DNA from: Pleionea litopenaei
GTDB taxonomy: Bacteria; Pseudomonadota; Gammaproteobacteria; Enterobacterales; Kangiellaceae
Direction: 5' to 3'
DNA length: 64,000 bases
Assembly: GCF_031198435.1 (NCBI RefSeq)
Contig: NZ_CP133548.1
Location: 2,142,001-2,206,000 of the forward strand
Under the pieces are notes generated by a model. The model ran no database searches and was not told the DNA's origin. It was given only the letters and a program-made list of their open reading frames with translations. The translations under genes were made by a program, and so were the position numbers. How positions within the stretch are numbered: the first letter of the stretch is position 1; every line of letters begins with the position of its first letter. This document shows positions 14,872-21,540 of the stretch, piece by piece.

Positions 14872-14974
14872 CTTATTGCGATCAGTACTGCTATTTCGAT
14901 CGGTACGACTATTCGATCGGTACAACTATTCGAGCAGTACGACTACTCGATCGATACCACAATTCGATTGAGGC
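14872..14974. repeat. Degenerate ~17-bp tandem repeat array (about six units)
   Basis: Successive units end at 14888, 14906, 14923, 14940, 14957 and about 14974, and follow the pattern xxCTATTCGATCGGTAC. Adjacent units differ at one to five positions; one has 18 bp. The units contain the palindromes CGATCG and GTAC. The array fills much of the ~295 bp gap between the racemase and the 178-residue protein, upstream of the latter. The rest of the gap shows nothing I can name. Confidence 0.85.
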
Positions 14975-15106: not shown

Positions 15107-15832
15107 CTAGTGATCCAAAGAATATTCGACAATGTACTCGACGTGGGCTGAAAGTGAGTCAATCAATGGTGTCGAGGTAAGTGATTGATTCAAAAGCATG
15201 CCTATTTCCGTACACCCAAGAACGACGGCTTCTGCCCCGGCCTGCTCGAGCCAATCGACTTGTGCCAAGTAATAGTCGCGCGAACTTTTCAATACCTGCC
15301 CAGTCACTAACTCTTCAAAAATAATTCGATTCACTTCTTTACGAGCGATAGGTTCGGGAACCAGCATTTCAATATGTCGTTGCAGTAAAGCATCGCGATA
15401 AAACGGCATTTCCATGGTAAATTCGGTGCCTAGCACACCCAGTTTAGTGGCTGAGCGCTCGACCATTGTATTCTGCTTACCCGCTGCTGGCGTCGGTAAC
15501 TTTCGAGCTAACGCATCGGCGATGTGTAACACCGGAAGCTGAACGCCTTGTTCAACGTCGGCGGCGACTTGATGCATGGTGTTAGCGCAAATAACCAAGG
15601 CCTCTACGCCAGCAGATTTCATCGCTAATGCATCGGCAATAAATTGTTCGGCAATTTTGTCCCATTGGTGGGTTACTTGAAATTCATGAAAGGGCGCAAA
15701 ATTAACGCTACGAATCATCAAGTCGGCTGAGGTTAATCCACCCTCTTGATCTTGAACGGCCTGGTTGATCAAGCGGTAATAATCTAAAGTAGAATGCCAA
15801 CTGGTGCCGCCGAGTAGCCCGAGTTTTTTCAC
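15107..15832 (-). CDS. Aspartate/glutamate racemase family protein
   Basis: The 241-residue protein has both catalytic cysteines of the PLP-independent Asp/Glu racemase family: CANTMH near residue 83 and LGCTEIG near residue 207, plus the LGLLGGTSWHST start typical of YgeA-like amino-acid racemases. It should interconvert L- and D-amino acids, probably Asp or Glu, in the cytoplasm. A Gly/Asn/Thr loop (AAGKQNTMVERSATKLG) around residue 120 separates the two symmetric halves. It lies downstream of bioD by about 36 bp on the same strand and could be read from the biotin operon, though a role in biotin synthesis is not expected. Confidence 0.87.
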   Translation of the reverse strand: MKKLGLLGGTSWHSTLDYYRLINQAVQDQEGGLTSADLMIRSVNFAPFHEFQVTHQWDKIAEQFIADALAMKSAGVEALVICANTMHQVAADVEQGVQLPVLHIADALARKLPTPAAGKQNTMVERSATKLGVLGTEFTMEMPFYRDALLQRHIEMLVPEPIARKEVNRIIFEELVTGQVLKSSRDYYLAQVDWLEQAGAEAVVLGCTEIGMLLNQSLTSTPLIDSLSAHVEYIVEYSLDH

Positions 15833-15868
15833 TTTAAAATCCTATTTTTATATGACCATGCGCCTAAC

Positions 15869-16525
15869 TTATAGGCTTTGCGTTAATTGTTCAAAAGTTT
15901 CTGCGTTGTGCTTGAGTTCTCCGAGTAAAGGCGCAGCTAATAATCGCTCTAACGTTGCCAAGTTCTCGGCGTAACAAGACATCATCGGGTCGATTTGATT
16001 CGCTACCCAACCAACAACGTCTAAGCCCCTACTCTGAATCGCTTCGAAGGTTAATAAAGCGTGACTAATGCACCCTAAACGCATTCCGACAACCAGAATA
16101 ACTTTCGCGTTCAAAGGCTTGATTAAATCTGCGAAACTTTCGCTTTCATTGAGAGGAACTAAAAACCCGCCGGCGCCTTCGATTAACGCCACTTGAATAT
16201 CTTGTTGCTGCGCTAATGAGCGATTTACCGTCTCAACAACCTCAATAACGCTCGGTGGTCGCTCCGCCGCTAGGTGTGGCGCGATTGGCTGTTCAAAACA
16301 AAATGGATTGATAGAGGCATATTCTTGTTGAACTGGATTGACGGCCATAATTGCTCGAGCATCATCATTCTGCCATTGTTGATCAATCCATTCTGCACCG
16401 GCCGCAATGGGTTTAAAGCCCATCGCCACGGTTCCATGTTGATTCAAATACTTTATTAATCGAGTAGTTACAAAAGTTTTACCGACTTCTGTATCGGTAC
16501 CAGTAATAAAATAACGACGTAACAT
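15869..16525 (-). CDS. bioD: Dethiobiotin synthetase
   Basis: BioD closes the ureido ring of dethiobiotin from DAPA, CO2 and ATP. The N-terminal P-loop FITGTDTEVGKTFVT is diagnostic, followed by KPIAAG and the EGAGGFLVPLNES stretch near residue 115. The length of 218 is typical. It is the last biotin gene of the minus-strand operon, 51 bp after bioC. Confidence 0.96.
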   Translation of the reverse strand: MLRRYFITGTDTEVGKTFVTTRLIKYLNQHGTVAMGFKPIAAGAEWIDQQWQNDDARAIMAVNPVQQEYASINPFCFEQPIAPHLAAERPPSVIEVVETVNRSLAQQQDIQVALIEGAGGFLVPLNESESFADLIKPLNAKVILVVGMRLGCISHALLTFEAIQSRGLDVVGWVANQIDPMMSCYAENLATLERLLAAPLLGELKHNAETFEQLTQSL

Positions 16526-16576
16526 GTGGCTAGACTCTTTTTATTTTGCTTTTCCGAATGTTTTGCTTTACCGAAA

Positions 16577-17413
16577 CTAAGACAGAGAAATGGGATAAGT
16601 ATCACTCGCTACCGTCGCCGAGGCTTGTGCCCCCCAGGCGTGCCCAAACAAAGCTTCATAAGTTACCGGATAACTCGATTGCGAAGCTTTTATCGCGTCA
16701 TAAGCTTTGACTAATGATTGCCATTGCCCCTTGCTCATCAATCCCGTAGAGCGTCCACCGTTTAGGCTATTAGCACCAATACCTTTCAAGTCTTTGAGAA
16801 TGCCTTTGACCGTTTCATACTCGAACGTCAACGCTTCTCGATCCATGACCGGCTGGTAGAGACCACTCGATAACATAGCATCGCCGACATGGTGCATATC
16901 AAGAAAGTCATTCACATGTTGCCGTTGATCAACCCTAGAAAACGCGAGCTTTAACTCTTGCAAAGTGTCTGGACCTAGCGTCGAAAATAATAAGAGCCCG
17001 CTCGGTTTTAACACGCGAGAAAATTCCGTCATGGTCTTTTTTAGATCGAAACTCCATTGAAGCGACAAATTCGAAAAAAGTAAATCAACCGACTGATCAG
17101 AAAAAGGCAGCCTATCCATATCAGCTAATTCATACTGACACTTGCCAAACCAGCCATTATGATTTTTTGCCTGTGTTAACATGCCTGGAGCAATATCAAC
17201 ACCGCATACTCGCGCCCGTGAAAATCGTTTTTTCAACTTACGAGTAAACCAACCTGTGCCACATCCGATATCAACAATACACTCAGGTTTGATCTTCATC
17301 AGATCCAATCGCTCAAAAAGACGATCACCTATCTCTCGTTGCACAAAAGCGTACTCATCGTAAGTGCTCGCTGCCTTTGAAAAATTAGCTGCAATTTGAT
17401 GCTTATCGATCAT
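16577..17413 (-). CDS. bioC: Malonyl-[acyl-carrier protein] O-methyltransferase (intact copy)
   Basis: BioC methylates malonyl-ACP so that the fatty-acid machinery can build the pimeloyl chain. This full copy (278 residues) has the SAM-binding motif I VDIGCGTGWFTRKL (residues 47-60), a VCGVDIAPGM acidic loop, and the LFSNLSLQW and LLLFSTLGPDTLQEL segments typical of BioC. It follows a truncated bioH fragment whose reading frame overlaps its start by 11 bp; the intact bioH lies one repeat unit further upstream. The first ~47 codons belong to the tandem duplication, so an N-terminal remnant exists upstream. Confidence 0.95.
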   Translation of the reverse strand: MIDKHQIAANFSKAASTYDEYAFVQREIGDRLFERLDLMKIKPECIVDIGCGTGWFTRKLKKRFSRARVCGVDIAPGMLTQAKNHNGWFGKCQYELADMDRLPFSDQSVDLLFSNLSLQWSFDLKKTMTEFSRVLKPSGLLLFSTLGPDTLQELKLAFSRVDQRQHVNDFLDMHHVGDAMLSSGLYQPVMDREALTFEYETVKGILKDLKGIGANSLNGGRSTGLMSKGQWQSLVKAYDAIKASQSSYPVTYEALFGHAWGAQASATVASDTYPISLS

Positions 17414-17774
17414 TCATCTGCTCACCGTGTTGCAAAAACACTTTCAGTTCGTGACAAAAATCTGTCGGGTGCGATAGAAATGGCGCGTGACTCGCTTTTC
17501 GGAAAACGGATTCTTCGCTACTCGGACTTAATTGCCCAATCTGTTGTGCCGCTTTGACGGGAACAAGTCCGTCTAAACGCCCATAAACTCTCAACCAAGG
17601 ATGCGATATATCAGCGGCTTTATCACGCAAATCCGTTTGGTTAAGAATATTCAAACCGCCTCGCAACGCTTTAAGAGACGGCTGGCCATGAATAAACACG
17701 GACTCTTTCAAGCGCTGAATATCTTCTTTTTGTGTTGGACTGCCCATCGTTTGAATGGCCAAAAAACAATACAC
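17403..17774 (-). pseudogene. bioH: Truncated bioH 3' remnant
   Basis: This frame (GTG at 17774, 123 residues) reproduces residues ~143 to the end of the intact BioH almost exactly, preceded by three codons from the joint. It keeps the Asp and His of the catalytic triad (GRLDG and ASHAPF) but has lost the nucleophile Ser81, so it cannot be a working esterase. A 1-bp difference near its end changes the tail to EQMNDR instead of EADE, so it overlaps the intact bioC start by 11 bp rather than 4. It may matter only for translating the downstream bioC. Confidence 0.92.
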
Positions 17775-17905
17775 TCAGGTTTGATCTTCATCAGATCCAA
17801 TCGCTCAAAAAGACGATCACCTATCTCTCGTTGCACAAAAGCGTACTCATCGTAAGTGCTCGCTGCCTTTGAAAAATTAGCTGCAATTTGATGCTTATCG
17901 ATCAT
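17708..17905 (-). pseudogene. bioC: Truncated bioC 5' remnant
   Basis: The frame starts with an ATGA overlap at the intact bioH stop and repeats the first 47 residues of BioC, through PECIV. It then crosses the duplication joint into another reading frame of bioH and stops after 18 unrelated residues. The break is immediately before the SAM-binding DIGCGTG motif, so no methyltransferase function can remain. It is the ancestral-style bioH/bioC junction, now leading into a remnant. Confidence 0.92.
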
Positions 17906-18684
17906 TCATCAGCCTCGCCGTGTTGCAAAAACACTTTCAGTTGGTGACAAAAATCTGTCGGGTGCGATAGAAATGGCGCGTGACTCGCTTTTCGGAAAAC
18001 GGATTCTTCGCTACTCGGACTTAATTGCCCAATCTGTTGTGCCGCTTTGACGGGAACAAGTCCGTCTAAACGCCCATAAACTCTCAACCAAGGATGCGAT
18101 ATATCAGCGGCTTTATCACGCAAATCCGTTTGGTTAAGAATATTCAAACCGCCTCGCAGCGCTTTAAGAGACGGCTGGCCATGAATAAACACGGACTCTT
18201 TCAAGCGCTGAATATCTTCTTTTTGTGTTGGACTGCCCATCGTTTGAATGGCCAAAAATCGGATTAGCGTACTCTCATAATCTTCATCTAACATTGTCAT
18301 AAAATTATTCATGACCTCAGATTTCATGGCAAAAGGCCAATCATCGGCTTGCGTAAAGCGCAAGTTGCTGGCGACCGTCACTAGTTTATCGACTCGATGC
18401 GGAGCATGCAGAGAAATTGCCGACGCAATTAGACCTCCTAGAGACCATCCTAAGTAATGGGCATTATCTGGGGCGACAGACAGCACTTGTTCGATAACTC
18501 GCTCTAAAGAATATTCACCATTGGGTAATGGGCTGCGGCCAAAACCAGGTAAATCAATATTCGTGATTCGAAAGTGCTCACTCAGCTCTGGATATAACGA
18601 CTCAAAAATTCCACCGTGAATCCCCCAACCATGAAGTAACACAAGATTAGGGCCTTGACCCAGCTGTTCAAAAAACGGTTGCAT
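17902..18684 (-). CDS. bioH: Pimeloyl-[acyl-carrier protein] methyl ester esterase (intact copy)
   Basis: BioH removes the methyl group that BioC added, ending chain growth at pimeloyl-ACP. The 260 residues form an alpha/beta hydrolase with LLHGWGIHGG (oxyanion region), Ser81 in GWSLGG, Asp207 in GRLDG and His235 in SHAPF. Length matches E. coli BioH (256). It lies 19 bp after bioF and overlaps the bioC remnant by 4 bp. Its last third is duplicated downstream. Confidence 0.94.
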   Translation of the reverse strand: MQPFFEQLGQGPNLVLLHGWGIHGGIFESLYPELSEHFRITNIDLPGFGRSPLPNGEYSLERVIEQVLSVAPDNAHYLGWSLGGLIASAISLHAPHRVDKLVTVASNLRFTQADDWPFAMKSEVMNNFMTMLDEDYESTLIRFLAIQTMGSPTQKEDIQRLKESVFIHGQPSLKALRGGLNILNQTDLRDKAADISHPWLRVYGRLDGLVPVKAAQQIGQLSPSSEESVFRKASHAPFLSHPTDFCHQLKVFLQHGEADE

Positions 18685-18703
18685 TGGTAAGAAGGTTACC
18701 TCT

Positions 18704-19879
18704 CTAGTCTTTGTTCTTTGCGATCAGTTTTGCCAGCGTCGTCACTAGCTGCTTGATTTGCGGCTCTGTGTGCTCGCGCGTAATGGTGATACGTAGCCGA
18801 CATTGATTTTGAGGTACGGTTGGAGGACGAATAACGCCGACCCAAAAGCCTTGTTGTCGCAACTTTTCACCCAAGGTCAAGCAACTGGATTCATCGCCTA
18901 CCAACAGGGGTTGTATCGCAGAGGTTGATGGCATCAACGGCAACCCTTCACTCTCGGCAGCATAACGAAAGTAAGCTATATTTTGCTGCAACTGCGTCAA
19001 CCATTGCGGATGATCACTCAAGCTCTCGATCGCAACGAGCGTCGTCAGTGCAGCCACAGGTGACAGCGCGGTGGTATAGACATAAGGCCGTGCGAACTGC
19101 TGTAACGCATCGATAACCACAGCGGAACCCGCTACAAATGCCCCAGCGCTACCAAGCGCTTTGCCAAACGTCCCCATTAATATCAATTGCTCAGAATGGT
19201 CTTGCCACAATCCTTCGGTTACCCCAACACCACGATGACCGACAACACCAAAGCCATGAGCATCGTCAACAATTAACGTTTTATTGTTCATTTCCGGCAT
19301 TGCTAAATATTGAGCAACATTTGCACTGTCGCCATCCATACTGAAAACACCATCGGTTACCACGCCGGTAAGCCGAAACTCGCCGCGTAATTGTTGTCGT
19401 AATGACTCATTGTCAAGGTGTCGAAAGCGACGATGCGTGGCGTCAGAAAATCGCCCAGCATCGATCAATGACGCATGGTTTAATTTGTCTTGTACGATGA
19501 GGTCAGCGCGTTCGAACAGCGTCGTCAACAAAGCTAGATTGGCCATGTATCCACAAGAAAAAAGCATGACTCTGGGAGCACCAATAAAGTTCTGTAATCT
19601 TTCGCACAGTGCTTCATGCTCTTCACTGTGGCCACAGATTAAATGCGAAGCCCCCGATCCCAACCCAGTGTACGAAAGTTGTTGCTGCACTTTCGCAATC
19701 AAAGACGGGTTACCGGCTAAATTTAAGTAGTCGTTGCTACTAAAATTTAGTAATGCTTGCCCGGCAACGGTAACTTGAGTTCCTTGCAAGCCACTGCGCG
19801 TTGCTACTTGCCGATATTGTTGCTGTGCGTGCCTTTGTTGTAAGCGCTGCTGTAATACCTGAGATAATGAATGACTCAC
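18704..19879 (-). CDS. bioF: 8-amino-7-oxononanoate synthase
   Basis: BioF condenses pimeloyl-ACP with alanine using PLP. The 391 residues show NYLNLAGNP, GSGASHLICGHSEEHEALE-like segments, DDAHGFGVVGHRG (PLP-binding aspartate/histidine) and MGTFGKALGSAGAF with the Schiff-base lysine, all standard for the family. The N-terminus is Gln-rich (QQRLQQRHAQQQY). It sits between bioB and bioH in the biotin operon, with about 55 bp after bioB. Confidence 0.96.
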   Translation of the reverse strand: MSHSLSQVLQQRLQQRHAQQQYRQVATRSGLQGTQVTVAGQALLNFSSNDYLNLAGNPSLIAKVQQQLSYTGLGSGASHLICGHSEEHEALCERLQNFIGAPRVMLFSCGYMANLALLTTLFERADLIVQDKLNHASLIDAGRFSDATHRRFRHLDNESLRQQLRGEFRLTGVVTDGVFSMDGDSANVAQYLAMPEMNNKTLIVDDAHGFGVVGHRGVGVTEGLWQDHSEQLILMGTFGKALGSAGAFVAGSAVVIDALQQFARPYVYTTALSPVAALTTLVAIESLSDHPQWLTQLQQNIAYFRYAAESEGLPLMPSTSAIQPLLVGDESSCLTLGEKLRQQGFWVGVIRPPTVPQNQCRLRITITREHTEPQIKQLVTTLAKLIAKNKD

Positions 19880-19934
19880 TCAATGCTCTCTTTAACACGG
19901 TTTAATGACCGATCTGACATCACACCGAAGCATG

Positions 19935-20993
19935 CTATACAGCAGCGTTGGTGAAGCGAACACCACCGATCTGATCGCTCTCTGGTAATACGGATGGAAC
20001 CGGCTCTTGCTCAACCTCACTACGCTGCTCAGGACGAATGCCCAAACGCTCAAACAAGGCGACATCGTCATTTTGTTGAGGATTGGCGGTTGTCAGTAAT
20101 TTTTCGCCATAAAAAATAGAGTTTGCACCAGCCATAAAACACAAGGCTTGCGTTTCATCACTCATGTCTTCACGACCCGCCGATAATCGAACATAAGAAT
20201 GCGGGAGCATGATTCTAGCGGTAGCGATCATTCGCACAAACTCAATTTCATCGAGCTTCTCCACATCCGCTAGCGGCGTTCCAGCAACCGCAACAAGCAT
20301 ATTAATCGGCACACTTTGCGGGTGCTCTGGCATATTCGCCAACTCCATGAGTAGCCCATATCGATCAGAAGCTTGTTCACCCATACCGATAATGCCGCCA
20401 CTGCATACATTGATACCAGCGTCTCTTACATTTTGTAGGGTATCTAGACGATCTCGATAGCTTCGCGTCGTAATGATTTTATCGTAGTATTCCTGCGACG
20501 TATCGAGGTTGTGATTGTAATAATCTAAGCCGGCATCTTTTAATTGCTGAGCTTGATCCTCATCGAGCATGCCAAGCGTAACGCAGGTTTCGAGACCAAG
20601 CGCTTTCACGCCTTTGATCATTTCAAGCACCACAGGAAAGTCTTTACCACGTGGCGAACGCCAAGCCGCGCCCATGCAAAAACGTGTTGCGCCGGTTTCT
20701 TTCGCCTTCTTGGCATTACTCAAAACTTCTTCAAGAGCCATTAACTGCTCTTTACTGAGACCCGTATTGTAATGACCACTTTGCGGACAATAGGCGCAGT
20801 CTTCAGGACAAGCACCGGTTTTAATACTGAGCAGTGTTGACGTTTGCACTTCGTTCGGATTAAAGAAACGGCGATGAACCGATTGAGCATAAAAAATTAA
20901 GTCATTGAAAGGTAAGTTAAATATCTCTTTAACCTCAGCGAGGCTCCAATCGTGACGAATCACAGGTTGTTGTACATACTGTTCGATGTTCAT
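19935..20993 (-). CDS. bioB: Biotin synthase
   Basis: BioB is a radical-SAM enzyme that inserts sulfur into dethiobiotin. The [4Fe-4S] motif [10 protein letters not shown] is near residue 53, followed by SGHYNTG, and the [2Fe-2S]-binding region (SAGREDM) near residue 258. An upstream in-frame TTG at 21008 exists, but ATG 20993 gives the usual MNIEQYVQ start with GGGA about nine bases before it, so I chose 352 residues. It is the first gene of the bioBFHCD operon. No bioA is next to it, although bioA is often divergent from bioB in this group. Confidence 0.96.
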
Positions 20994-21054
20994 CGGTAAA
21001 TTTCCCAATCTAGATATCCCTCGAAGTTTAAAACCTCAATCGCTTGAGTCAATC

Positions 21055-21098
21055 GTGATAACCGTCAATGCATTATAATCGAGAAGAAAGGTTAACAA
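21055..21098 (-). promoter_or_regulatory. Candidate bioB promoter with BirA-like half-sites
   Basis: On the minus strand TTGTTA (21098-21093) and TATAAT (21077-21072) are spaced by 15 bp. The -35 lies in TTGTTAACC, close to a BirA operator half-site, and an imperfect partner GGTTATCAC lies at 21063-21055. The half-site spacing (26 bp) is longer than the usual ~15-16 bp of BirA operators, so the operator reading is weak while the promoter is plausible. Confidence 0.4.
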
Positions 21099-21156
21099 GT
21101 GAGCATTTATTGACCATCTTAAACTTTTCAGAACAAGCTATTCAGAAATTAACGCG

Positions 21157-21540
21157 TTAAAACAGCCATTGCGCGAGAAAGAAAATACCCAACGAGAAAA
21201 AGGACACAATGGTCAGCTTAACTCCATTTTTGAGCTGCCGCTGTTGCCAAAAAATACACATCAGAGCAGCAAAAAAGAATGACAGGCTGGTTAAGCATAG
21301 CAACACCAATACCCACCAAAGTTCCAAAAGTCCGCTCGCGACCCAATTATTTAGCCAAACTGGCGGTTTCCCAATGATCACTATGATCAGTCGATAAGCA
21401 ACCGCGAGAAGAGTAAAGAGCAACAAGGTGATTCCCACCAAGTTGCCCAGCTGTTTTATTCGATACTCCACACTCGATCCTTTCCCATTACTCGACTCAA
21501 TCGGTGGCGTTAGCTGACACCGAGATCGTCTATTAGCCAT
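21157..21540 (-). CDS. Small integral membrane protein, unknown
   Basis: The protein has about three hydrophobic segments (LVGITLLLFTLLAVAYRLIIVII; LLELWWVLVLLCLTSLSFFFAALMCIFW; LTIVSFFSLGIFFLAQWLF) after a hydrophilic N-terminus. I do not recognise the family. The frame could open at 21591 (144 residues), but that leaves only 9 bp to the divergent comF, so the ATG at 21540 (127 residues) seems more likely; neither start has a strong ribosome site. It lies upstream of bioB on the same strand with a ~150 bp gap that carries the bioB promoter. Confidence 0.55.
   Translation of the reverse strand: MANRRSRCQLTPPIESSNGKGSSVEYRIKQLGNLVGITLLLFTLLAVAYRLIIVIIGKPPVWLNNWVASGLLELWWVLVLLCLTSLSFFFAALMCIFWQQRQLKNGVKLTIVSFFSLGIFFLAQWLF

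Follow-up and report, generated by a model that had tools for sequence, protein, structure and literature searches.

A small tandem duplication across the bioH–bioC boundary of Pleionea litopenaei that leaves both genes whole

The biotin gene series of the marine bacterium Pleionea litopenaei carries a short head-to-tail repeat across the boundary between bioH and bioC, with one whole copy of each gene retained and two gene fragments lying between them. We regard it as highly probable that, in the lineage of this species, illegitimate and short-homology-independent recombination produced the repeat as a single ~492-bp tandem duplication. The repeat lies in a stretch of 64,000 nucleotides (the window; RefSeq assembly GCF_031198435.1, contig NZ_CP133548.1, positions 2,142,001 to 2,206,000), and coordinates below are those of the window unless otherwise given. 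The contig is 4,380,405 bp long, and the genome comprises 3 contigs totalling 4,422,012 bp, with a rated completeness of 100% and a contamination of 0.06%.

Tandem Repeats Finder gave a single array at this place (17273-18258, period 493, 2.0 copies, 98% matches, score 1935), and a repeat search returned two ungapped blocks of 149 nt (spacing 492) and 300 nt (spacing 493), each at 99% identity. Aligned against one another, the copies differ by four substitutions, at copy-1 positions 17419, 17424, 17450 and 17666, and by one internal 1-bp indel adjoining 17420/17421; an additional end gap in the alignment corresponds to the A-run at the copy edge. The description in an earlier note on this DNA, of a head-to-tail unit of about 492 bp holding the end of bioH and the start of bioC, with a few substitutions and one 1-bp indel between the copies, is thus borne out by the two repeat programs and the alignment. 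When the whole array was used as a query against its own 4.42-Mb genome, a single match was found. Judged from its sequence, an adjacent and near-identical repeat of ~490 bp cannot be attributed to chance. Elsewhere in the window, a 17-bp tandem repeat of 5.5 copies lies between two ORFs at 14874-14968.

In the upstream copy (17765..18257, minus strand, 493 bp) lie the 3′ portion of bioH and the 5′ portion of a truncated bioC′; the downstream copy (17273..17764, minus strand, 492 bp) contains a ′bioH relic together with the beginning of the working bioC. The two meet at an unstranded joint, 17764..17765, within a run of A. With the edge marked by a slash, the left end of the unit reads TC/AACAATAC and the right end GGCCAAAAA/TCGG, while the joint reads GGCCAAAAAACAATAC. 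Six A are present at the joint versus the 5+2 expected without overlap, so the microhomology is 1 bp (A), in keeping with the single base that had been proposed. In a search of 16000-20000 for repeats of at least 20 nt, no inverted repeat was found and no longer direct repeat occurred at the unit ends; the sole other direct repeat was a 26-nt pair at 77% identity (16188 and 19803), away from those ends. Reasoning from the joint, we infer a process such as template switching or unequal sister-strand joining at the 1-bp match.

In the direction of the genes, all on the minus strand, the order is whole bioH, bioC′, the joint, ′bioH and whole bioC. Whole bioH (17902..18684, 260 aa) scores 274.8 bits against the NCBIfam model TIGR01738 (cut-off 206.95) and has its 3′ part inside the upstream copy; whole bioC (16577..17413, 278 aa) scores 243.9 bits against TIGR02072 (cut-off 184.95) and has its 5′ part inside the downstream copy. 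The fragments fall below the same cut-offs, with a BioC N-terminal match of 28.3 bits for the 65-aa bioC′ ORF (17708..17905) and 116.6 bits for the ′bioH relic ORF (17403..17774, 123 codons). These scores agree with the earlier reading that one whole bioH and one whole bioC remain, separated by a dead bioC′ and a dead ′bioH. The bioC′ product consists of 47 residues of the BioC N-terminus, identical to BioC, followed by 18 out-of-frame residues across the joint to the stop at 17708. The relic corresponds to BioH from about residue 133 and is without the N-terminal half, and its 3′ end is frameshifted relative to whole bioH by the 1-bp indel. A GWSLGG motif, which we take to be that of the nucleophile serine, is present in whole BioH and absent from the relic (17403-17774). 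The flanking genes complete the series: bioB (19935-21008) and bioD (15869-16525) score above their NCBIfam cut-offs, and bioF (18704-19879) has the bioF model as its best match at 408.3 bits, slightly below the cut-off of 426.45. That both genes are intact follows from the geometry, since a tandem duplication with its ends inside two adjacent genes normally has this outcome. Here the ends lie in bioH and bioC, both originals survive, and the truncated bioC′ and ′bioH are found between them.

An assembly artefact, in which the haplotypes of two strains, or a chimaeric read, had been placed head to tail, seems to us very unlikely. The copies do differ at few and clustered sites, as strain variants might, but an overlap-based misjoin needs shared sequence and the joint offers 1 bp, so that a read probably spanned it. 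The contiguity of the genome and its contamination of 0.06% also speak against an artefact, as does the tendency of short-read assembly to collapse such repeats more often than to invent them. The joint is known here from the assembly, and we take it to be read-supported because an assembler would have little reason to misjoin at one shared base.

Comparison with relatives points to a duplication in the lineage of P. litopenaei. Each of 22 other loci, representing at most 20 distinct genomes, has a single bioH match and a single bioC match (E of 1e-5 or better), and a second match to either gene was found in none of them. The lower genome count reflects two pairs of loci with identical 500-bp cores (L006/L022 and L009/L023); L006, from a genome of the same genus (G001), and L022, from Pleionea sediminis S1-5-21, share an identical core of 1.3 kb. 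A wider search gave a BioH-type match in 57 of 60 other genomes, with a best identity of 69% (G004) among the matches listed, and among the matches listed for these 60 genomes (to about E 1e-4) no second BioH fragment lay beside the main one. In single genomes, bioH was split by a frameshift (G014, where it is the only bioH) or had an internal stop (G052), and one genome had two strong BioH matches on different contigs (G023). Compared with the array itself, three of the four other same-genus genomes gave one partial match each, at 65-74%, and the fourth gave none; we therefore reject a duplication shared by the relatives compared. None of the compared loci is known to come from the same species and no second conspecific genome was found, so ‘lineage-specific’ here means absent from the searched loci of other species. 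A duplication of bioH/bioC is likewise not described in the titles and abstract openings listed from literature searches on biotin operon duplication and on Pleionea. An interval of 176 nt between the bioH and bioC matches of one same-genus locus (L003, genome G002) was considered as a possible relic and rejected; an in-frame bioC ATG there overlaps bioH by 8 nt, and the interval reads as a BioC N-terminal extension of more than 50 residues.

To place the repeat against its genomic background, we took the window together with 20 stretches of 20 kb, 464 kb in all and roughly one tenth of the genome, and compared this sample with itself by blastn at E 1e-10, keeping matches of at least 80 bp. 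Adjacent head-to-tail repeats were found in three places (bioH/bioC, L026 and L044), of which bioH/bioC alone has just two copies. The other two are arrays of another kind, since sequences related to them occur at further sites in the genome. A 495-bp unit is repeated 5.6 times at L044:14607-17394 (G000:C1:4014607-4017394), two of its units being 100% identical, and another array of this family is found about 225 kb from it (G000:C1:4239403-4241107). No Rfam family matched the unit at the gathering threshold, and a 164-aa ORF of one unit gave no Pfam match above cut-off. At L026:17589-18638 (G000:C1:217589-218638) a 169-bp unit is repeated 6.2 times, and 205 bp of this array has 68 chromosomal matches, many of them short and clustered, marking a dispersed repeat family. 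Spaced direct repeats were seen at L025 and L027. In the first of these (L025:1-10263, G000:C1:1-10263), genes that by eye resemble non-ribosomal peptide synthetases contain repeated stretches, 1.6-3.4 kb long and about 98.6% identical, a sequence pattern that suggests recent module duplication or conversion.

The differences between the two bioH/bioC copies are unevenly placed. A tract of 32 bp directly upstream of the working bioC start (17419..17450, minus strand) contains four of the five, a clustering with P of about 0.005 in a uniform simulation in which the 32-bp width was picked after inspection of the data. With differences clustered in this way a molecular clock is not applicable and the copies may be recent; slow drift would account for the pattern no better than a single complex mutation, conversion of the remaining repeat, or alleles from two strains. 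The earlier statement that the copies have had time to diverge is therefore not secured, a single complex event or a converted tract being equally compatible with four of five differences in 32 bp. Attempts to polarise the differences among 19 relatives were uninformative, as the variable leucine codon appears there as TTG, TTA, CTG, CTT or CTA, and several different residues occur at the Q/E site; BioH C-terminal tails were too variable among relatives to serve. A variant of the preferred duplication concerns the source of the second copy. If incoming DNA had put a slightly different allele in tandem, the differences would be older than the duplication, and in its favour they are clustered rather than spread. 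No conspecific genome that could reveal a donor allele was found, however, the four other same-genus genomes matching the array partially at 65-74% (three) or not at all (one), and we think a two-strain origin unlikely.

The earlier note had also counted two bioH/bioC-type translational junctions of different overlap. Both overlaps stand, at 4 nt for bioH/bioC′ (17902-17905) and 11 nt for ′bioH/bioC (17403-17413), but the junctions are not equivalent, as the 4-nt one feeds a bioC′ that stops after 65 codons. The junction at the end of bioH leads only to this dead frame, and consequently bioC, whose start lies 488 nt past the end of whole bioH, needs its own ribosome site or access via the ′bioH relic. 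For 16 of the 22 loci the spacing between bioH and bioC could be read, using the nearest in-frame ATG and counting both L006 and L022. The genes overlapped by 4 nt in five, by 8 nt in six and by 1 nt in one, and four loci had 2-11 nt between them; an 11-nt overlap occurred in none of the 16. The 4-nt type is thus common in relatives, and the 11-nt junction, which was made by the indel, may be derived. This reading is weakened by the four other same-genus genomes, which are without the 4-nt type (8 nt in L003, gaps in L004, L005 and L006), and by differences that could not be polarised.

Predicted pairing with the 16S rRNA tail was compared between the two bioC-type starts, using a tail that is assumed to hold for this organism; a 16S rRNA family search gave no match in this genome, rated 100% complete, and matched 9 of 14 control genomes. 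Pairing was weaker before bioC than before bioC′ with either tail, at -7.8 versus -9.3 kcal/mol for a 13-nt tail and -3.0 versus -6.5 for a 9-nt tail, while in the predicted local fold the working bioC start was somewhat more open (0.62 versus 0.43 unpaired). On these predictions bioC can probably be translated independently from its own possible ribosome site. Ribosomes leaving bioH would enter the dead bioC′ frame, and bioC would depend on its own Shine-Dalgarno sequence and/or on translation of the relic. The duplicated segment would then act, if at all, solely as a longer spacer in the bioBFHCD series, with BioC output little or mildly altered and fitness near-neutral; a changed BioH:BioC ratio is possible. 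Promoter-like sites in 15800-21300 were at chance level (8 found, 7.4 expected) with none of the eight inside 17273-18257, so creation of a promoter by the duplication was rejected; terminator-like sites in the same interval were also no more than chance would give (four found, 5.6 expected).

Two readings give the duplicated segment a larger part. In the first, translation is relayed through the relic, which thereby sets bioC output and the BioH:BioC ratio, with the clustered changes before bioC as tuning, and we hold this to be extremely improbable. Its route would run from bioH to bioC′ by the 4-nt overlap, from a TTG at the bioC′ stop into ′bioH, and on to bioC by the 11-nt overlap. Between 17774 and 17403 the ′bioH frame is open and runs into bioC, and one of its TTG codons has a 4-nt overlap (17708-17711) with the bioC′ stop; predicted rRNA-tail pairing at that TTG is poor, at -2.0. 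The second reading, compatible with the preferred explanation as to origin, is that selection retains the duplication, because it uncouples the overlapping bioH end and bioC start, leaving each free to change and the upstream tract to be re-tuned. Duplications of such size are generally unstable, and recombination between 493-bp copies should give back the single-copy state; taken with the 1% divergence between the copies, this instability means that something could be retaining the duplication. The position of the 32-bp tract directly before the bioC start (P 0.005, width post hoc), the different rRNA-tail pairing at the bioC and bioC′ starts and the more open predicted start of working bioC are all consistent with re-tuning. 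However, the predicted pairing at working bioC is weaker rather than stronger, the 16S tail is an assumed one, not read from this genome, the changes cannot be polarised, and five of them are too few for a selection test, and we judge retention by selection highly unlikely.

The preferred explanation, a single illegitimate tandem duplication, is in line with three findings: the copies are adjacent and direct, the joint falls within 0-5 bp, and relatives have a single copy. Work on cat amplification in Acinetobacter baylyi describes a class of tandem duplications whose joints share 0-5 bp (PMC9997567), and the head-to-tail copy described here resembles them. The amplicons of that study, 12-290 kb in size, were selected for gene dosage, whereas ours is 0.49 kb, in two copies and holding no whole gene. 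Spontaneous duplications in Salmonella LT2 are also chromosomal and recognised by their joints; in the cited part of that study, verified joints from cultures have at least 11 bp of microhomology, with joints of 7 and 9 bp unverified (PMC3411829), so a 1-bp joint is not of the sort best documented there. As in promoter capture by spontaneous tandem duplication, a gene is placed in a new upstream context without long homology, but unlike the gene activation in the cited account (PMC11111574), no promoter-like site was found in the duplicated unit. With respect to coupled overlapping gene pairs, the 4-nt overlap of bioH/bioC′ is one of the two commonest spacings, and reinitiation coupling is almost abolished at ~20 nt, as far as the cited portion of that work extends (PMC10666635). 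The pair here differs in that its downstream ORF, bioC′, is dead and the working bioC, at 488 nt from the bioH end, is far beyond that distance.

The bioH/bioC duplication is real as far as the assembly goes and of an ordinary kind of mutation, and sequence comparison did not reveal it in the other species that were searched. It offers a natural example of how a small, nearly homology-free duplication can add dead gene pieces to a gene series while breaking no gene. The overlapping pair of bioH stop and bioC start has been split, so that each side can change alone. The case would carry greater weight if the relic alters BioC output or is kept by selection.
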